52,178 bases of DNA, taken from assembly GCA_005772955.1 (NCBI GenBank), contig SXID01000028.1, positions 1 to 52,178 on the forward strand, written 5' to 3'. The position numbers and the translations under genes are program-made. A model generated the notes under the pieces. It saw nothing but the letters and a program-made list of their open reading frames with translations, was not told where the DNA came from and searched no databases. Positions 11,868-38,030 of the stretch are shown piece by piece (positions within the stretch are counted from its first letter, which is position 1; the number at the start of each line of letters is the position of its first letter). Source of the DNA: Planctomycetia bacterium. GTDB taxonomy: Bacteria > Planctomycetota > Planctomycetia > Gemmatales > Gemmataceae.

Positions 11868-13468
11868 TTTGCGGTGTCCGTGGCGCGGCTTTCGCGGATT
11901 ACCGTCACCTTGATTTCGCCAGGGTAATCGAGTTGCTGCTCGATAGCGCGGGCGATGTCGCGACAAATACGCACCGCGTCCGCATCGGTGGCGCGGTGTG
12001 CATTTGCGATCACACGCAACTCGCGCCCGGCCTGGATCGCGAACGCCTGTTCCACCTCCGGGAACCCACATGCGACCGCCTCCAGGTCTGCGAGCCGCTT
12101 CACGTACTTCTCAAGCGTTTCGCGTCGTGCTCCTGGGCGGCTCGCGCTGATCGCGTCCGCGGACGCCACCAACACCGTGTAGATGTTATCGATTGTGATG
12201 TCGTCGTGGTGCCCTGCGATCGCGTGGAGTACCTCCTTACTCGTTTCGCCGTAGCGTTTCGCCAACTCCGCACCGACTTTGGGGTGCCCGCCTTCCATCT
12301 CGTGGTCCGCGGCCTTGCCCACGTCGTGGAGCAACCCGCACCGCCGCGCGAGTTGCGCGTTCAGCCCCATTTCCGACGCCATGACTCCGCACAGGTGCGC
12401 GACTTCGACCGAGTGCGAGAGTACGTTTTGGCTGTAACTCGTGCGGAACCGGAGCCTTCCCAGGAGGTAGACCAACTTTTCATGCGGCATCTGCACGTCC
12501 GCGTCGATCACGGCTGTCGTGCCGAGTTCCTGGATGTGTTTCTCCATCTCGGTCTGTGTCTCCGCAACCACCTCCTCGATGCGGGTGGGGTGGATGCGGC
12601 CGTCCTGGATGAGTTTCGTGAGCGCGAGGCGCGCGATCTCGCGCCGGACGTTGTCGAACGCGGACACGATGACCACACCGGGCGTGTCGTCCACGATTAC
12701 GTCCACACCGGTGAGCTTCTCGAAGGTGCGGATGTTGCGTCCCTCACGCCCGATAATGCGGCCCTTCATGTCGTCCGACGGGATGTCCACCGTGCTGACT
12801 GTCATGCCGGCCGTCTGGTGTGCCGCGTACCGTTGGATGGCGATGGTGACGATCTCTCGCGCGACGGTTTCGGCCTGCTGTTTCATCCGCTCGTCATGCT
12901 GACGAATTTTCTTCGCGATTTCGTCGGAGAGTTCGCGTTCCAGTCGCTCAAGCAACATCTTCTGGGCGGTCTCGCGCGACAGTCCGCTGATCTCGTGGAG
13001 TCGTTTCGTCTGCTTGTCGAGGGCGTCGTCGATTTGCTTGCCTTTCTTGTCGAGCGACTCTTCGCGCTCGGCTACCTTCTCCTTGAGGCTGTCGAGGTGC
13101 TTCTCCTTGCGCGTGAGTTCGCGCTGTTGGTGCTCGACCGCGTCCTCGCGTTTCTCGACGCGCCGCTCCAGTTCGCGCACTTCAGTCCGGGCGATTTCGA
13201 GTTCCTTGCTCAGTTCCTCGCGGCGCCGGACGGCCTCGTCGCGGGCTTTCAGTTCGGCGTCGCGGACGATGCGCTCGGCGTTGCGCCGGGATAGTTCGAC
13301 GAGTTCGTCACCGCGTGCCTGGGCGTGGCGCAGCTCTTCGGGGTTGGGCGGGGCCGGGTCGCGGGTGGCGACTGGCGGGGGTGTTCGGCGCACGACGAGG
13401 TATGTGCCGCCGATGCCCAGAAGGACAGCAGCGACGACAAGCCCGCCGGCTAACAGCGGGTCGATCAT
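11864..13468 (-). CDS. rny: Ribonuclease Y
   Basis: Membrane-anchored endoribonuclease that starts decay of many mRNAs. The 534-residue protein shows the canonical order: one N-terminal membrane helix (about 5-26), a long charged coiled coil (about 40-205), a KH RNA-binding domain with [16 protein letters not shown] (236-250) and an HD domain with [13 protein letters not shown] and [12 protein letters not shown] (379-390), the metal-binding hydrolase centre. I take the ATG at 13468 because TGGAGTGG lies about 10 bases upstream and the helix then starts at residue 3; the frame is open to 13525. The 3' end overlaps the next gene as GTGA. A possible -10 element TAAAAT lies at 13564-13559 on this strand. 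Confidence 0.96.
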
Positions 13469-30067: not shown

Positions 30068-30152
30068 GGCGAGAGCCTCTTTTGGTCAGAGGGTGGCGAG
30101 TTCTTGGCAGGAACAGTGTATACGCCGGCCACCGGTGGCGGTGCGGCTTCAG

Positions 30153-30167
30153 CACACCGGCGGTGTG
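30153..30167. promoter_or_regulatory. Candidate activator site upstream of the TraR-like gene
   Basis: Perfect palindrome CACACCG-G-CGGTGTG, about 120-135 bp upstream of the sigma-54-type promoter at 30286-30301. It shares CACACCGG and GTGTGTC with the dyad at 34150-34183, so it is a possible site for the adjacent NtrC-type regulator. Confidence 0.4.
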
Positions 30168-30285
30168 TCGCGGTTGCACGCGCGGGCCACATTCGCACAG
30201 CGCTGCGGGCGCTTGCAATAGACGCTCACATCGACCCGGCTCATTTCCCTGCACTTCGCGCATCTCCTCCTAATTCCCTCGGATA

Positions 30286-30301
30286 CGGTACGCACGTTGC
30301 T
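30286..30301 (+). promoter_or_regulatory. Sigma-54-type promoter for the TraR-like gene
   Basis: CGGTAC-GCACG-TTGCT matches TGGCAC-N5-TTGCA at 8 of 11 positions and has the essential GG and GC 12 bp apart. The predicted start is near 30312, 32 nt before the GTG of the zinc-finger gene. A sigma-54 response regulator is encoded 700 bp away. Confidence 0.45.
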
Positions 30302-30343: not shown

Positions 30344-30733
30344 GTGAGCGCGAAGCCGCAGGGCGGGGAGAACCGGAACTCGTACCGCGACCAACTCTGG
30401 GCACTCGCTGTCCGGTTAACCGCTGGCGTGGCAGTTCTGACCGAGGAAGTGTTGCGACCCACGGGAGCCGACGGAACCGCGGCTGAAGGACCGGCACGCC
30501 AGGAGATTGTCTCGAGCAGCGAGGGCGATGAGGAGGTGGCCCGCTCTGTTCTGTTGTCGGAGGCGAACACACTGGAAGAAGTCTATGCCGCGCTCGCGCG
30601 GCTTGACGCGGGCATGTTCGGGAAGTGCGAACAGTGCGGCCGGGCGATCACCAAAACCCGGCTCGACGCGATCCCGTACGCCCGTTACTGCATCAGCTGT
30701 GCCGGGGTAGCCCAGAGTTGTGAAACGCACTGA
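30344..30733 (+). CDS. DksA/TraR-type zinc-finger protein
   Basis: 129 residues from the GTG at 30344, fixed by GTGGAGG eight bases upstream. The C-terminal third holds the four-cysteine zinc finger FGKCEQCGRAITKTRLDAIP then YCISCAG, the DksA/TraR signature, preceded by a helical part (NTLEEVYAALARLDAGM). The first 75 residues are unlike E. coli DksA, and no coiled-coil Asp pair is obvious, so it may not work in the RNA polymerase channel exactly as DksA does. Proteins of this type tune transcription under stress. A sigma-54-type promoter precedes it, and a small membrane protein gene follows 83 bp later. Confidence 0.85.
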   Translation: MSAKPQGGENRNSYRDQLWALAVRLTAGVAVLTEEVLRPTGADGTAAEGPARQEIVSSSEGDEEVARSVLLSEANTLEEVYAALARLDAGMFGKCEQCGRAITKTRLDAIPYARYCISCAGVAQSCETH

Positions 30734-30816: not shown

Positions 30817-31020
30817 GTGATTCCAAGTGGTCTGGAAACATGGGAAGTCGTCACCATCTCCGCGTTGGCGGCGGCGTGCACCTTGAGCATCGCGACGACA
30901 ATCGGGGCGACCGTTGCTTACTTTGCGACGCGGGAGCCGCGTGCGGCCGAACAATCAGTGACCAGCAGTCCGCGAGCGACCGAACCGGCCTACGCCGCTC
31001 GGCCCGCCGTGTCTCACTGA
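30817..31020 (+). CDS. Small single-span membrane protein, 67 residues
   Basis: Starts with GTG at 30817 after GGGAGG. It has one hydrophobic segment (about 9-37, TWEVVTISALAAACTLSIAT then TIGATVAYFAT) and a polar C-tail. It lies after the TraR-like gene on the same strand, and its stop overlaps the 3' end of the convergent response-regulator gene by seven bases. No family is recognised. The good ribosome-binding site and helix support a real gene. Confidence 0.5.
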   Translation: MIPSGLETWEVVTISALAAACTLSIATTIGATVAYFATREPRAAEQSVTSSPRATEPAYAARPAVSH

Positions 31021-32432
31021 ACTGGCGTTTCAGTCGGCGCGTGGTCAGTCGATGCGATTGGGCCGAGATTGTGCTTATCGATGAGCCGGTAGAGCGTGCG
31101 GCGGCTGATACCCAGCGATTTGGCCGCCCGCGCCTTGTTTCCGCCGTTGCGGTGCAACACGTCCTCAACGTGCCGCCGTTCGACCACGTCCAGGTCGTCG
31201 GGTTCGGGTACGGCAGCCAGCGATCCCACGACCGGGGCCGGTTTGCTCGCGTGGAGCAGGGTCTCGGGCAAGTCGTCGGTTGTGATCGTCTGCCCTTCCG
31301 CGAGAATCTGCGCACGCTCCAACACATTGGCCAGTTCGCGCACGTTACCCGGCCAGTCGTATCCGCACAGGGCGCTCAGCGCTCGCTCGTCCACGCGAAA
31401 CGGTCTCTTTCCCGTTGGTCGGGTGCGGAGCAGGTGTTCAATCAGTGCGGGGATGTCTTCGCGGCGGTCCTTCAGCGCGGGCAAACTGATTGCGATGACG
31501 TCGAGCCGGAAGAACAGGTCTTCGCGGAATCGCTTGGCCGTGACCTCGTCTTCCAGCGACTTGTTCGTGGCCGCGATCACTCGCACGTTGGCGCGTTTTT
31601 CCTGCGTGCTGCCGACCCGACGGTAGTGGCCGTCTTCCAGTACGCGAAGCAACTTTGCTTGCAGCCCTGGGGCCATTTCGGCCACCTCATCAACGAACAT
31701 CGTCCCGCCCTCGGCCACCTCGAACAGACCCGGTTTGCTCTTGTCGGCGCCCGTGAACGCGCCCTTTTCGTGGCCGAACAGTTCACTCTCCAGCAGGCTC
31801 TCTTGAAGGGTCGCGCAATTAATCGTGACTAACGGTTTTCCGCGCCGCGGGCTGTTGCCGTGAATTGCGCGTGCGACCAACTCTTTGCCAGTCCCACTCA
31901 GCCCGCGGACAAGGACGGTGGCGTCCGTCGGTGCCACCTTCTCGATCATCGACACAATCTTCCGAACCGCTGCACTCTGACCGACGATCCGGTATCGGTC
32001 GGACTCGAACACCAAGCTCTCGACGTAGCGCCGGAGTCTGAGGTTCTCGACGCGTAACCGGCGAACCTCCATCGCGCGGTCGAGTACGGCGAGTACCTGC
32101 TGGAGGCGGAACGGCTTGAGGACGTAGTCAAACGCGCCGGACTTCATTGCCTCGACCGCCGTCTGGATCGATCCCTGCCCGGTCATGATGAGCCCGACCA
32201 GATTCGGGTCCAACTGGAAGCCCTGTCGGAGAATCTGAATGCCGTCGGTGCCGGGCATCATCAAATCGGAGATGAGAATGTCGAAATCGCCGTGTTGAAG
32301 AGCGGCGAGACCGGCAGCGGGTTCGGCGACCCCAGTCGCGTCGAACCCTACTTCCCGGAGTGATTCGCACAGCGCGGTCATCAACTCGACCTCGTCGTCG
32401 ATCACTAACAGGCGACCAGACCGCGGGGACAT
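31014..32432 (-). CDS. NtrC-family sigma-54-dependent response regulator
   Basis: 472 residues in the classic order. The receiver domain has the acidic pair at 12-13, phospho-acceptor Asp56 in [11 protein letters not shown], Thr84 and Lys106 in YVLKPF. The AAA+ domain has Walker A GLSGTGKE (177-184), the sigma-54-contact loop GAFTGA (224-229) and [10 protein letters not shown] Fis-type helix-turn-helix is at the end ([20 protein letters not shown]). The intact GAFTGA loop shows it should activate sigma-54 RNA polymerase from upstream sites. The kinase gene lies 35 bp upstream on the same strand. Nearby sigma-54-type promoters and a 12-bp dyad suggest local targets. The ATG has GAGG five bases before it. 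Confidence 0.96.
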
Positions 32433-32467: not shown

Positions 32468-33799
32468 TTATTCGGCGTGGAGGCTGGCGACGTTTGTGTC
32501 GGGGCGCACTGGTAGGGTGATCCGCACCGTGGTCCCGACACCAACGCGGCTCTCGACTTCAAGCGTGCCGTGGTGCTGCTGGACGATTCGCCGGCAGATG
32601 GCGAGACCAAGCCCCGTTCCCTTCCCCTCGTCCTTGGTGGTGAAGAACGGTTCGAAAACGCGGGTCAGGAGTTCCGGCTGGATTCCGGTTCCAGTGTCGG
32701 TCACCTCGATCACCACCGCGGGTTGGCAGGGCGGCAGCACCCCGGGCCGAACGTGCGGAGCAAGACGACCGCCGCTGGGCATCGCGTCCGCGGCGTTGGT
32801 GAAAAGGTTCAGGAACACCTGCCGGAGTTGCTGCCGGTCGGCGTGGATCAGCGGGACGCCGGGGGCGAACACTAGCTCGACCCGCACCTGCGACTGCATG
32901 AAGTGATGGGCGACGAGTTCGGCAGTCTTCATCACCTCCACACACACGTCGACAGTGGACACCTGGTCGCGGCTGGCGCGGCTGAACTGGAGCAGGTTGG
33001 ACACCAACCCGGCCATCCGCTCCGCCTCCTGCTGTACGATCTCCAACGACCTGTAGCGCGGGTCGTCCGGCGGTGTCTTCGCCAACACCCCCTCAATCCG
33101 GAGGCTGACCGTCGCGAGTGGGTTGTTCAGTTCGTGGGCGATGCTTGCGGCCAGTTCCCCGACTCCGGCCAGCCGCGCCGCTTGCCACAACTGTTGAGTC
33201 GTCGTCCGCAGTTCGTCGGATCGGGCTTGAAGCTCGGAGATCGCCTGCTCGCGCTGTTGGGCCGTGGCGTGGAGTTGGTCGTCGGCGCGCAATTGCGCTT
33301 CGGTGAGTTGAGCCTTTGTCCGGAGTTGGTCGAGTTCTCGTTGTGCGATCTCGTAGCGTTTCCGCTCGGTCACGTCCCGGATGATGGCGGTAAACAGTAC
33401 CCCTGCACCGGTGCCGAACTTCGAGATGGAGATTTCCGCGGGGAACTCGGAGCCGTCCTTGCGCCGGCCGGACACCTCGCGCCGCTCACCAATGAGCCGG
33501 GCCGGCGCGGGTGCCTGTTCGAACCGCTCCACCCCGGCGGGATATGCGTTTCGGAACCGCTCGGGGATGAGCACATCGAGTGCCTGGCCGACGATCTCCT
33601 CTGGGGCATACCCGAATAGTTTGGTCGCGCCGCGGTTGAACAGGACGATCACTCGCTGCGAATTGACAGTGACGATCCCGTCCTCGGCGAGGTCGATGAT
33701 CTCGATCAACTGTTTGGGAGTGATGTGCGAGAGCACGACGCTCCTGAGTGATGGTTCCCAGCTCTCTTGGCTGTCCTGCTGGGTTGGCGCGTACAACAT
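32468..33799 (-). CDS. Soluble PAS-domain sensor histidine kinase
   Basis: 443 residues without membrane segments. A PAS domain (about 25-150, IIDLAEDGIVTVNSQRVIVLF, LFGYAPEEIVGQ, ERKRYE) is followed by a coiled coil (about 150-205), the HisKA box with His222 in SIAHELNNPLATVSLRIEG, and the ATPase domain with Asn335 (NLFTNAADAM), DTGTGIQPE and GTGLGLAICR. This is the NtrB/FixL group that phosphorylates NtrC-type regulators, and the regulator is the next gene. No heme or flavin ligand residue in the PAS domain is identifiable by eye, so the signal is unknown; a cytosolic redox or oxygen signal is possible. A TTGACA promoter precedes the pair. Confidence 0.94.
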   Translation of the reverse strand: MLYAPTQQDSQESWEPSLRSVVLSHITPKQLIEIIDLAEDGIVTVNSQRVIVLFNRGATKLFGYAPEEIVGQALDVLIPERFRNAYPAGVERFEQAPAPARLIGERREVSGRRKDGSEFPAEISISKFGTGAGVLFTAIIRDVTERKRYEIAQRELDQLRTKAQLTEAQLRADDQLHATAQQREQAISELQARSDELRTTTQQLWQAARLAGVGELAASIAHELNNPLATVSLRIEGVLAKTPPDDPRYRSLEIVQQEAERMAGLVSNLLQFSRASRDQVSTVDVCVEVMKTAELVAHHFMQSQVRVELVFAPGVPLIHADRQQLRQVFLNLFTNAADAMPSGGRLAPHVRPGVLPPCQPAVVIEVTDTGTGIQPELLTRVFEPFFTTKDEGKGTGLGLAICRRIVQQHHGTLEVESRVGVGTTVRITLPVRPDTNVASLHAE

Positions 33800-33925: not shown

Positions 33926-34021
33926 TTATCGCTCCCGCGGTCGGCGGAAGAGCAGGTGCGTAAAGCCGAAGAGGATTGTGAGCAACACACCACAAAGCCC
34001 CAGCATCGTCACGGTTTGCAC
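33926..34021 (-). CDS. 31-residue membrane peptide under a sigma-54-type promoter
   Basis: The frame from GTG (34021) to TAA (33926) encodes 31 residues: one hydrophobic helix (TVTMLGLCGVLLTILFGFTH) and a basic end RRPRER, which should stay in the cytoplasm. GGAG lies six bases before the GTG. An exact sigma-54 consensus lies 35 bp upstream and points at it, with the predicted start near 34045. The leader is therefore about 24 nt. This makes a real small-protein gene likely despite its size. Small one-helix proteins often act as subunits or modulators of membrane enzymes; nothing here says which. A longer frame upstream exists but starts before the promoter. Confidence 0.5.
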   Translation of the reverse strand: MQTVTMLGLCGVLLTILFGFTHLLFRRPRER

Positions 34022-34055
34022 GACAGACTCCGTGTCCTTGGCTCTCCTCCGCCAT

Positions 34056-34071
34056 TGCAACCCCGGTGCCA
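34056..34071 (-). promoter_or_regulatory. Exact-consensus sigma-54 promoter (minus strand)
   Basis: Reading on the minus strand, TGGCAC-CGGGG-TTGCA is an 11-of-11 match to TGGCAC-N5-TTGCA, with GG and GC 12 bp apart. The predicted start near 34045 serves the 31-residue membrane peptide. The dyad at 34150-34183 lies about 120 bp upstream. Confidence 0.7.
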
Positions 34072-34143
34072 GTGAATTTCGGGACTGAATACGCCAATTG
34101 TCGTGGGTTCCCTCCGTCGTGGTCGTTGTAGCCAGCGTTCGGG

Positions 34144-34190
34144 TGCGCGGTTCTGGCACACCGGTGTGTCCGTGTGCCAGAACTTCGCAC
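34144..34190. promoter_or_regulatory. Dyad between two divergent sigma-54 promoters, probable enhancer site
   Basis: Perfect 12-bp arms GTTCTGGCACAC (34150-34161) and its complement (34172-34183) with a 10-bp centre. A further five bases pair on each side (34144-34148 and 34186-34190). The centre itself contains CACACCGGTGTG, a second nested palindrome. Its centre is about 105 bp from the plus-strand start and about 120 bp from the minus-strand start, the usual distance for NtrC-type activator sites. Confidence 0.55.
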
Positions 34191-34244
34191 GCTCTGCGTC
34201 TCCTAACTCGCGGGTTAGCGCGGATATTTGGGTCGTATCGTTGT

Positions 34245-34260
34245 TGGCATGTTCATTGCT
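34245..34260 (+). promoter_or_regulatory. Sigma-54-type promoter (plus strand)
   Basis: TGGCAT-GTTCA-TTGCT matches the consensus at 9 of 11 positions with correct GG/GC spacing. The predicted start is near 34271, 35 nt before the ATG at 34306. It faces away from the minus-strand promoter at 34056-34071. Confidence 0.6.
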
Positions 34261-34305
34261 CCGCTGAAAACGGAACGTCGATGCCAAACACCAGCGGGAG
34301 AGGAC

Positions 34306-34581
34306 ATGGGTACCGCGATCGCGTGCGTCAGCAAACTGGATTGTGCGCTCTTGACGCTCGCCAACGAGATTCGCAACCGCCATCGTGCTCACCTGCGCGA
34401 GTTGCGGTTTGATGTCGTACTGGACGAGGTGGTTATCCGCGGCGTGTCGACCTCCTACTACGGCAAATCACTGGCCCTGTCCGAACTACACAAGTGTGGT
34501 CTGCGGGTGACGGCGAATCTGATCGAGGTTGAGGGCGCGGCTTCAGAGCCAGTCACGGGAACAATTCAGGTTGGAGGTTGA
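34306..34581 (+). CDS. BON-like small domain protein
   Basis: 91 residues from the ATG at 34306, which has GGGAGAGGAC before it and fits the predicted sigma-54 transcript. The segment LRELRFDVVLDEVVIRGVST then YYGKSLALSELHKCG then LIEVE follows the alternating beta-alpha pattern of BON-like domains common in planctomycete small proteins (typically VxLxGxxxTYYAKQLA). BON domains often bind membranes or phospholipid, but no signal peptide is present here. It is followed after four bases by the DUF2007 gene, so the two form an operon. An upstream in-frame ATG at 34249 would lie inside the promoter and is rejected. Confidence 0.65.
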   Translation: MGTAIACVSKLDCALLTLANEIRNRHRAHLRELRFDVVLDEVVIRGVSTSYYGKSLALSELHKCGLRVTANLIEVEGAASEPVTGTIQVGG

Positions 34582-34585
34582 CCAC

Positions 34586-34903
34586 ATGACGTGCGACAAG
34601 GATGATGTTGTGAGGGTGTACGCCGGTCCTCTGGTGCTTGTAGAAACGTATCGGAGGGTGTTGGTCGAAGCCGGGATCGAGTGCCGAGTAGTCGGGACTG
34701 AACTTGCTAGCGGCCTCGGCTCGGCGCTCCCCGAGTCAATCGAACTGTGGGTTCATCAGAGCGATTTGGCGAGGGCTACCGAAGTGCTCGAGCGCGAGTC
34801 GCTACAGAAGGATGAGCGGAGTCACTACCGGCCCCGTCACCACTTGCCGCAAACAGCGACCCGAAGTTCGCACAGGCAGCGTACCGGAAGGAACCGTCCT
34901 TGA
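34586..34903 (+). CDS. DUF2007-type putative signal-transducing protein
   Basis: 105 residues. The first 70 show the DUF2007 pattern: VRVYAGPLVLVETYRRVLVE, AGIECRVVGTELASGLGSAL and ELWVHQSDLARATEVLERE, a small ferredoxin-like fold related to GlnB-type signalling proteins by annotation. The last 30 residues are basic and unstructured. GGAGG lies in the end of the preceding gene, and the gap is four bases, so both genes share one transcript. Its partner is unknown. Confidence 0.72.
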   Translation: MTCDKDDVVRVYAGPLVLVETYRRVLVEAGIECRVVGTELASGLGSALPESIELWVHQSDLARATEVLERESLQKDERSHYRPRHHLPQTATRSSHRQRTGRNRP

Positions 34904-36441: not shown

Positions 36442-37013
36442 AGCAACGGTTCGGCGCAAGTCGCTGAGAAGACTGTGCGCGAGAGCCGTTGCCCGGTTCT
36501 AACCACCAAGGGTGACGCGGAGTACCACCCCCGCGACTTGCTGGGCAACTGGAATAACTCCCACACCGGCTTTTCAGGGGCCGAACCAGTGAGTACGCGA
36601 ATGGCCGTTGACACGCTCGGTGTCGGACCGGTGTCGAAGGCTGACCGTATCCTCGCGATCAACGCCGGTTGGGAGTGGGGGGCACAAAATCCGCGTGCCC
36701 GGCGATTCGGCGGACACAGCAGCGGCCCACAGGTAATCGTAAACGCGGCCGTCCGCGTCCGCGCACCAGGATGTGCGGCAACGACGTAGTTGGCGTTGCT
36801 CGCGCCGAAATCGCACCACGCTAGTGGAACACCAGAAAGTCATCTCCCAGACGCTGCGTCGTGACAACACCGCACATCTTCGCAGGTCACGAATCGGACG
36901 TTCTCGCCCGCGATTGGCCCCCGAATTGCTCTTCGAATGCTTTATCGAACTCACCACTTGTTCAAGGATCGTCCCCCAGTTCGCGGCGAGAGTCCTTTGC
37001 ATTGGAGAGACCA
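36442..37013. other. Intergenic region with a sigma-54 promoter but no clear gene
   Basis: About 570 bp. Open frames on both strands exist (36475-36789 plus; 36574-37014 minus) but none has recognisable protein character or a good start. GACAC-GCTCG-GTGTC near 36610 and CACACCGGC near 36562 resemble parts of the dyads upstream of the other sigma-54-type promoters. The promoter itself is listed separately. Confidence 0.5.
36915..36930 (+). promoter_or_regulatory. Sigma-54-type promoter for the cytochrome c'-like gene
   Basis: TGGCCC-CCGAA-TTGCT matches TGGCAC-N5-TTGCA at 9 of 11 positions with correct GG/GC spacing. The predicted start is near 36941, about 73 nt before the ATG at 37014. Confidence 0.6.
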
Positions 37014-37472
37014 ATGAAGCTGTTCATACGTTCGGGGATGTGCTTCCTGGTCACCGCTCTGACCGTAGTGTTCGTCGGTTTCGGTCGCGCGGACGACAAG
37101 CCGAATCCGAAGGACGAGCCGAAGAAGCCAACGGTGATGCAGCGGAAGTTGACTCACTCGCAGAAGATATTGGAAGGGCTTGTGATGAATGACTTCAAGA
37201 AAATCGACACCGGCGCGGACGGCTTGATTGAGTGCGTCAAGGACGCGACTTGGAAGATCAACAACACCGACAAGTACCTGTTGTATAGCAACGAGTTCAT
37301 GCGTCGGGCCGATGGGCTCAAGAAGGCTGCGAAGGAGAATAACACCGACGCCGCGGCGCTGACCTACGCTGAACTGACTCTGACCTGCGTCCGGTGCCAC
37401 CAACACCTTCGCGAGACTCGCATTAGCGCGATCCCCGTCGCACCCCCACCCGTCGTTGCGGGCCGCCGGTGA
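37014..37472 (+). CDS. Exported cytochrome c'-like protein
   Basis: 152 residues with a signal peptide (about 1-26, ending GFGRADD) and a helical mature part. One heme-attachment motif, CVRCH (125-129), lies near the C-terminus, the layout of cytochrome c' four-helix proteins. These bind NO or O2 or act as electron carriers in the periplasm. GGAGA precedes the ATG. A sigma-54-type promoter is found upstream, and the universal stress protein gene follows 75 bp later. Sequence identity to known cytochromes c' cannot be judged by eye. Confidence 0.75.
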   Translation: MKLFIRSGMCFLVTALTVVFVGFGRADDKPNPKDEPKKPTVMQRKLTHSQKILEGLVMNDFKKIDTGADGLIECVKDATWKINNTDKYLLYSNEFMRRADGLKKAAKENNTDAAALTYAELTLTCVRCHQHLRETRISAIPVAPPPVVAGRR

Positions 37473-37547: not shown

Positions 37548-38030
37548 ATGCTTCCGATTCACACCGTGCTGCACGCGACCGACTTCTCCGACTCGGCGCG
37601 GCCGGCGTTTCAACTGGCCTGTGCCTTGGCCCGCGACTACGGGGCGGCTCTCGTTCTGGTACACGTTGTTCCACCGGCCCGTGCCTTCTTCGCGCCGGAT
37701 GGGATCGCGGCACCGTTCTTCGTCGGGGACATGTACGACGCCCAAGTCCGTCTGTCGCGACTCCACCCAGGCGACCCGAGCGTGAAGACCGATCCTCGCG
37801 TCCTCGAAGGCGAACCGGCCGAACAGATTCTCCGTGCCGCACGGGACACACACGCGGATGTGATCGTGATGGGAACGCACGGCGCGAGCGGGTTAACGCG
37901 ACTCCTGGTGGGCAGCGTGGCCGAGAGCGTGATGCGCAAGTCGCCGTGCCCCGTCCTCACTGTTCGCGCCCCATTTTCGCTTTCGCCGGATCAGGCGCCG
38001 CTCGTCGAACAGCACGCGGAAACGGCTTGA
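37548..38030 (+). CDS. Universal stress protein (UspA family)
   Basis: 160 residues with the UspA fold: MLPIHTVLHATDFSDSARPA at the start, then AALVLVHVV, ADVIVMGTHGASGLTRLLVG and SVAESVMRKSPCPVLTVR. The G-x2-G-x9-G-S motif (GTHGASGLTRLLVGS) marks the ATP-binding subgroup. The start at 37548 has CGGAG seven bases before it. It probably shares a transcript with the cytochrome c'-like gene. It is convergent with the flavoprotein gene, the two stops being only 17 bp apart. Confidence 0.92.
   Translation: MLPIHTVLHATDFSDSARPAFQLACALARDYGAALVLVHVVPPARAFFAPDGIAAPFFVGDMYDAQVRLSRLHPGDPSVKTDPRVLEGEPAEQILRAARDTHADVIVMGTHGASGLTRLLVGSVAESVMRKSPCPVLTVRAPFSLSPDQAPLVEQHAETA

Follow-up and report, generated by a model that had tools for sequence, protein, structure and literature searches.

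Divergent sigma-54 promoters with tandem enhancer-like sites beside an NtrC-type two-component pair in a Gemmataceae bacterium

Introduction

Can one short intergenic region serve both a two-component operon and the genes transcribed away from it? This question is raised by a locus in a Planctomycetia bacterium of the Gemmataceae (assembly GCA_005772955.1, contig SXID01000028.1), of which a stretch of 52,178 nucleotides, here called the window, was analysed. Positions 34022-34305 of the window are intergenic and separate leftward genes for a small peptide, a PAS kinase and an NtrC-type regulator from rightward genes for a BON-like and a DUF2007 protein. A sequence-only reading had proposed that a central dyad in this region is one enhancer site serving two divergent sigma-54 promoters under the control of the neighbouring pair. 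To our knowledge, NtrC-type regulators of planctomycetes are numerous but little studied; Studholme is said to have worked on enhancer-binding proteins of Pirellula. The locus also provides a regulatory context for a conserved membrane micropeptide and for small proteins of the DUF2007 and BON-like types.

Results

Genes of the divergent locus and its neighbourhood

The genes considered in the window are the following.

31014..32432, minus strand: NtrC-type response regulator (Pfam: REC, Sigma54_activat AAA+ with GAFTGA, Fis HTH)
32468..33799, minus strand: PAS-HisKA-HATPase sensor kinase (Pfam)
33926..34021, minus strand: 31-residue membrane peptide, encoded at the head of the kinase operon (predicted GTG start; kept in relatives)
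34306..34581, plus strand: BON-like protein, fold unproven (predicted fold, conservation)
34586..34903, plus strand: DUF2007 protein (Pfam PF09413, 36.2 bits against a cut-off of 25.7)
30344..30733, plus strand: DksA/TraR-type zinc-finger protein (Pfam, NCBIfam; predicted GTG start)
37014..37472, plus strand: cytochrome c'-like protein (Pfam PF01322, E 0.0022, under the cut-off; predicted ATG start; neighbour conserved)
37548..38030, plus strand: universal stress protein, USP (Pfam PF00582; predicted ATG start; neighbour conserved)

The Pfam analysis confirmed the earlier description of the neighbouring genes as a PAS kinase (PAS/HisKA/HATPase) and a response regulator with a GAFTGA loop (REC-AAA-Fis). 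The protein thus has the make-up of an NtrC-type regulator, namely a REC domain, a Sigma54_activat AAA+ domain with GAFTGA and a Fis-type HTH, with a kinase alongside, and the cognate histidine kinase gene adjoins the regulator gene in the window as well as in the loci of relatives. The phospho-acceptor Asp, the GAFTGA loop and the recognition helix were aligned in 27 orthologues. Four of the 27 copies have GSFTGA and the others GAFTGA, and the recognition helix reads SRR(T/S/A)LYR in all copies but that of locus L181, which is apparently frame-shifted. With 17 candidates scored per genome, at least 49 of the 95 genomes of the family have a regulator match of E 1e-140 or better, and 46 of these 49 have one each. 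Against the 25 best NCBIfam models listed, which include AtoC, NtrC and ZraR, the regulator stayed under the curated cut-off every time. For the ZraR equivalog it reached 385.2 bits against a cut-off of 760, and the kinase reached 163.9 bits against 479 for the ZraS equivalog; the score for the FixL oxygen-sensor equivalog was 183.3 bits against 850. The 5.9-Mb genome carries a single copy of rpoN (PF04552, 204.6 bits).

Two sigma-54 promoters point away from each other

Four sigma-54-like sites in the window were considered.

34072-34056, minus strand: sigma-54 promoter of the peptide-kinase-regulator operon, CTGGCACCGGGGTTGCA (sequence; also in L023, L024 and L026)
34244-34260, plus strand: sigma-54 promoter of the BON-like/DUF2007 genes, TTGGCATGTTCATTGCT (sequence; conserved in four genomes)
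36914..36930, plus strand: third sigma-54-like site TTGGCCCCCGAATTGCT, preceding the genes of the cytochrome c'-like protein and the USP (score of at least 11)
30285..30301, plus strand: weak sigma-54-like site ACGGTACGCACGTTGCT before the DksA/TraR gene (score 9.5)

Both promoters of the divergent region, which the sequence-only reading had described as pointing away from each other, were recovered at these positions. At each of them GG and GC lie ten bases apart, as in the -24/-12 spacing, and this spacing is kept in close relatives together with the TGGCAC-N5-TTGCA-like context, as expected of sigma-54 promoters. A sigma-54 transcription start lies 12 bases past the GC; reckoned in this way, the predicted starts are near 34045 on the minus strand and 34271 on the plus strand.

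On a simple sigma-54 score, three sites reaching at least 11 were found in the whole window, where 40 dinucleotide shuffles had 1.1 on average, and these three are the two divergent promoters and the one upstream of the cytochrome c'-like gene. Back-to-back sites (score of at least 11, 100-250 bp apart) occurred once in the window and in none of the 40 dinucleotide shuffles. The exact TGGCAC-N5-TTGCA is by itself not special, with 2 matches in the genome against 4 for a reversed control pattern. The single parts are weak, but their combination is not readily put down to chance, and on sequence comparison it is conservation in relatives that lifts the region above chance.

The dyad consists of parts of two tandem enhancer-like sites

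Between the promoters, three overlapping elements were recognised.

34143-34161: enhancer-like site A, GTGCGCGGTTCTGGCACAC (1 mismatch to GTGTGC-N7-GCACAC)
34172-34190: enhancer-like site B, reverse complement GTGCGAAGTTCTGGCACAC (2 mismatches to GTGTGC-N7-GCACAC)
34150-34183: dyad GTTCTGGCACAC-N10-GTGTGCCAGAAC (exact 12-bp arms, formed by the inner parts of A and B, which mirror each other)

The 12-bp-arm dyad had been reported at exactly this place. A perfect dyad is by itself not rare. The window has seven distinct perfect inverted repeats whose arms are at least 12 bp long; 37 of 40 shuffles had none, but hairpins of the terminator and REP type are a normal component of real genomes. The six others (at 1168, 8137, 15947, 19285, 24896 and 28951) appeared terminator- or REP-like by eye. 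The dyad was rejected as one operator because relatives keep two 19-bp sites and do not keep the 12-bp arms. Of the proposed central enhancer, the shared enhancer-like DNA was therefore retained and the single operator was replaced by two 19-bp palindromes in tandem, A and B, which lie 29 bp apart from centre to centre. The centre of this pair is separated from the -24 elements of the promoters by about 80 and 97 bp.

The divergent region is conserved in close relatives

A search with the BON-like protein in 59 genomes, including its own, gave matches in 13. In three of them, the Gemmata relatives G009 (locus L023), G007 (L024) and G012 (L026), the best match belongs to the same divergent locus; L023 is near-identical to L024, so the two together represent about one independent case. 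Compared with the window, the regulators of these loci are 73-75% identical, the kinases 71-73% (69-71% in another comparison), the membrane peptides 55-59% and the BON-like proteins 47-54%. L023 and L024 also have the DUF2007 gene, which was not detected in L026 at the threshold used. The distance from the plus-strand site to the ATG of the BON-like gene is 61 bp in the window and 63 or 64 bp in the three relatives, and that from the minus-strand site to the same ATG is 233 bp and 236-246 bp, respectively. The minus-strand sites score only 10.0 each in L023 and L024 and 11.0 in L026. In all three relatives the motif pair lies between both promoters, with a spacing of 32 bp in L023 and L024 and 34 bp in L026.

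When the window is aligned with L023 and L026, the sigma-54 cores are invariant at 17 of 22 positions and the remainder of the intergenic region at 59 of 238. The half-sites are invariant at 14 of 24 positions, site B being poorly conserved by column (5 of 12). Both promoters with the pair between them are therefore clear in four genomes. The expectation that the dyad and both promoters would be conserved together was borne out for the promoters and the shared motif pair, and not for the perfect 12-bp arms.

Several loci showed variants of this arrangement. In G002 (L175), the peptide gene is divergent from the DUF2007 gene, without a BON-like match, and a pair is accompanied by weaker promoters (scores of 11.0 and 9.5 on the two sides). 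In G008 (L029), the kinase gene is divergent from the BON-like gene, without a peptide match, and in G025 (L030) the BON-like gene is divergent from a more distant kinase (38%). The divergent partner of the peptide in G016 (L173, about 12720-13000) is not BON-like, being instead a small basic protein with KQAIAIGLSEARKAGAKVP; there the enhancer pair is kept and no sigma-54 site scoring at least 9.5 was seen. By these comparisons, two promoters with a pair are not established beyond close relatives. An alignment of the kinase against GTDB contigs gave at least 80 loci, most of those listed being PAS kinases of other phyla with 30-38% identity; L061-L064 alone were used further.

The paired motif is enriched upstream of the locus genes

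Likenesses to GTGTG/CACAC were first spotted by eye in alignments of relatives. In an exhaustive count of half-sites and spacers, TGTG-N9-CACA was top-ranked, occurring in 8 of 21 upstream regions against 0.05 expected from base composition, an expectation uncorrected for the 4,608 four-base combinations tried and for the five-base ones. Upstream regions were taken as up to 450 bp before the kinase, peptide, BON-like, DUF2007 and DksA genes, and a pair was defined as two GTGTGC-N7-GCACAC sites at a distance of 19-36 bp that together have no more than five mismatches. Such pairs were present in 19 of 34 upstream regions; 59 permuted half-sites reached at most 5 regions, and the best of these was a one-base shift of the same repeat. 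No pair was found in the other 15 of the 34 regions, which counts against a shared enhancer. In the 18 regions from loci outside motif discovery, 8 had a pair and permutations reached at most 1; this set is a hold-out for the choice of motif, not for the mismatch limit, and its loci had earlier been viewed with the fixed template. When the spacer was varied over the 34 regions, a spacer of 7 gave 19 regions, 6 and 8 gave none, 5 gave 8 and 9 gave 4, the latter two counts probably arising from the half-site's own GT repeat.

In the 426,238 bases of 27 loci, the window included, 27 distinct pairs were found. A sigma-54-like site scoring at least 9.5 lay in the right orientation 40-190 bp away from 19 of 27 pairs and from the remaining 8 no such site was seen, a count made without a shuffle control. 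The 8 pairs without a recognisable sigma-54 site are mostly outside the close relatives and include the kinase-side pairs of L030, L173, L179 and L181.

Over the whole genome, single motif sites are at chance level (385 matches, and 418 for a reversed pattern used as control), so a genome-wide regulon could not be derived from single sites. A strict pair pattern, searched in 59 genomes, matched before the DksA gene of G009, in the divergent region of G012 and before the peptide gene of G016, with none for the control; further matches were at one place in G056 and at nine repeat-array places in G015. A relaxed pattern gave 21 rows in 10 genomes, 10 of them at the kinase locus or a pair-bearing DksA gene, against 6 for the control; the remaining 11 rows were unusable as new targets. 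Sites A and B have three mismatches when summed, and neither pattern recovers the pair of the window.

Two of these 11 places, in G002 and G013, and the strict match in G056 were inspected by eye and showed a hairpin-like stretch, an AraC-type gene and a transporter-like frame. The strict pair in G056 (L210, G056:C38:263221), a genome of another family of the class, lies near a frame resembling a ZIP-type transporter and may be due to chance. The enhancer pattern is also mimicked by REP-like TGGCACAGACATTCCTGTCTGTGCCA palindromes in the window's own genome (C5:20831, C51:16527 and C189:19336) and by related REP-like arrays in G015 (contigs 14, 139, 210, 271, 401 and 657).

The DksA/TraR gene is a candidate further target

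Upstream of the DksA/TraR gene of the window, the motif matched as follows.

30139-30157: enhancer-like site
30163-30181: enhancer-like site
30182-30200: weak enhancer-like site

The weak sigma-54-like site of the window before this gene aligns with better sites in L023, L024 and L026. In these three loci and in L025 and L029, a pair lies 102-104 bp from the better sigma-54 site before DksA. The spacing within the pair is 19-21 bp in L023, L024, L026, L025, L029 and L172 and 31 bp in L176. The best DksA match bears a pair in 8 of the 18 genomes of the genus that have a match, and no pair was found at the 12 lower-scoring DksA matches tested, which were those with a supplied locus. On this sequence evidence, the neighbouring DksA/TraR gene is probably a further target of the same regulator. 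In L252 (G001:C1), a sigma-54 site scoring 12.5 precedes a DksA-type gene, and neither the regulator nor a pair was detected.

The third sigma-54-like site is conserved in four genomes as TTGGCCCCYGARTTGCW and precedes the cytochrome c'-like gene by about 100 bp. No recognisable enhancer pair was found at this cytochrome c'/USP promoter in the window.

The small proteins of the locus

The 31-residue peptide is 50-59% identical in the loci L023, L024, L026, L173 and L175 of five relatives and, judged by this conservation, looks like a real gene. Relatives of it also occur away from the kinase, in L241 (G025:C2), L242 (G099:C193) and L247 (G004:C105), the last being divergent from a cytochrome c'-like gene. 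None of these three, in G025, G099 and G004, was found to carry an enhancer pair. The peptide and its relatives form a small conserved membrane-peptide family.

The labels that the sequence-only reading gave to the rightward genes fared differently: DUF2007 holds, with PF09413 over its cut-off, and the BON-like fold was left unproven by Pfam and by fold searches. The BON-like protein of the window is conserved in relatives and had no Pfam match, and among 11 of its relatives three matched Pfam BON weakly (best E 0.053). Its structure model has an alpha-beta-beta-alpha-beta order (pLDDT 80). With VIA, the BON protein DolP came first (Z 7.9, rmsd 2.4, 68 aligned), unrelated chains following from 6.8. 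With Foldseek, ribosomal chains (30S S3-type) came first and OsmY fifth (E 0.027), none reaching 0.001. DUF2007 is listed among the domains occurring in USP proteins in PMC3673472.

Discussion

The promoters, the paired motif, their conservation in close relatives, the gene order and the rpoN gene are all seen in the sequence. We consider it probable that the two divergent sigma-54 promoters share this region as their enhancer, through which the adjacent NtrC-type regulator drives its own operon and its targets. The proposal of one enhancer site for two divergent promoters under an NtrC-type pair thus stands with regard to the promoters and the shared DNA, and not with regard to the single site. 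As members of this regulator class do, the adjacent regulator would be the binder and would act upon phosphorylation. The PAS kinase would phosphorylate it; its dimers would bind the tandem 19-bp palindromes A and B, about three helical turns apart, and the bound dimers would hexamerise and remodel sigma-54 polymerase at both promoters via DNA looping. The leftward output would be a raised peptide-kinase-regulator operon, that is positive autoregulation, and the rightward output would be induction of the genes for the BON-like and DUF2007 proteins. Probably the neighbouring DksA/TraR gene is driven by this regulator as well.

That the palindrome pair is bound by another enhancer-binding protein, with the adjacent regulator being its target, we regard as unlikely. 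The genome has many enhancer-binding proteins, with 59 candidate places in the regulator search, and a pair precedes the DksA gene of G018, an assembly of 65% completeness in which the regulator was not detected. Against this, the pairs adjoin this regulator and kinase across differing gene orders, and autoregulation is common among NtrC-class regulators. Moreover, G001 and G005, the two genomes of the genus that are more than 90% complete and without a regulator at E 1e-140, have no pair before their closest DksA, and in G001 the pair is absent although a strong sigma-54 site remains before DksA.

It is improbable that only the minus-strand promoter is a sigma-54 promoter and that the BON-like gene uses another promoter, the plus-strand match being fortuitous. 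The plus-strand site does have 2 mismatches among 11 positions of the strict consensus, and sites scoring at least 10.5 come about 3.4 times per shuffled window; yet all four genomes have it, 61-64 bp ahead of the BON-like ATG, and 8 of its 11 core positions are invariant. Hardly any weight was given to the dyad being a terminator or REP-like hairpin with an incidental likeness to the motif. Its perfect 12-bp arms, the six other such repeats in the window and the REP-like TGGCACAGACA palindromes of the same genome would fit a hairpin. However, the dyad lies between divergent genes, where no terminator is needed, and has no T-run; no second copy was found in the window within 3 mismatches and no exact copy of the inner dyad elsewhere in the genome, so that a terminator or REP element was judged unlikely. 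In relatives, furthermore, the hairpin dissolves and the two 19-bp sites stay.

For the shared enhancer served by the adjacent regulator, low oxygen or energy stress may be the signal, which is a tentative guess. It comes from the company of USP, cytochrome c'-like, DksA-type and BON-like genes, which resembles the NmpR regulon and the lxa locus of Burkholderia. A broader picture, rather doubtful in our view, is a Gemmataceae-wide stress regulon in which the kinase is tuned by the co-transcribed membrane peptide that opens its own feedback operon and the pair sets the ratio of signalling to effector proteins. The effectors would then be the BON-like, DUF2007 and DksA-type proteins, with low oxygen or energy stress as a possible signal.

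In the open-licence literature, no paper was found on this regulator, motif or locus, and none joining Gemmata, sigma-54 and enhancer-binding. A statistical prediction of sigma-54 regulons in Planctomycetia has USP (COG0589) and NtrC-type (COG2204) genes enriched among the predicted targets in this class or phylum (PMC12316311). Its main text has 0 mentions of Gemmata and, unlike the present analysis, its available text describes no enhancer motif or divergent locus. The low-oxygen lxa locus of Burkholderia cenocepacia contains USPs, a BON-domain protein and a cytochrome c (PMC6127331); the gene company is similar, but according to the available account lxa is much larger and has no sigma-54 divergent region.

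NmpR of Myxococcus xanthus is an NtrC-like regulator with autoregulation, sigma-54 dependence and a USP target, and its enhancers are tandem GCGCA-N5-TGCGC palindromes, mostly 14-15 bp apart (PMC11841059). By our arithmetic on that account this corresponds to about 29 bp from centre to centre, against 29 bp for A and B, and two tandem enhancer palindromes appear to lie upstream of a sigma-54 site in both systems. However, the palindromes of the window are of the form GTGTGC-N7-GCACAC, not the NmpR form GCGCA-N5-TGCGC. NmpR further differs by its input, a haem-binding protoglobin kinase as first sensor feeding a hybrid kinase, and by targets that include cbb3 oxidase, hemN and hemerythrin genes.

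The closest known layout is that of ZraSR/zraP in E. coli and Salmonella, where an NtrC-type regulator binds between divergent promoters, one for the kinase-regulator operon and one for a small accessory gene, which are sigma-54-dependent according to a Salmonella review (PMC4987338, PMC8249747). Judged from sequence and conservation, the present locus shares with it the sites between divergent sigma-54 promoters, one of them for a kinase-regulator operon. It differs in that its regulator and kinase are far under the ZraR and ZraS cut-offs, in that the divergent genes encode BON-like and DUF2007 proteins, and in that a DksA-type gene is likely a further target. To call the locus an undescribed signalling system was thus too much: this fits the regulator, the motif and the target set, which appear uncharacterised in the literature searched, and not the architecture, which is known from ZraSR/zraP. 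Within this known architecture, a defined DNA motif, a candidate regulator and a short list of targets are now available for planctomycetes.
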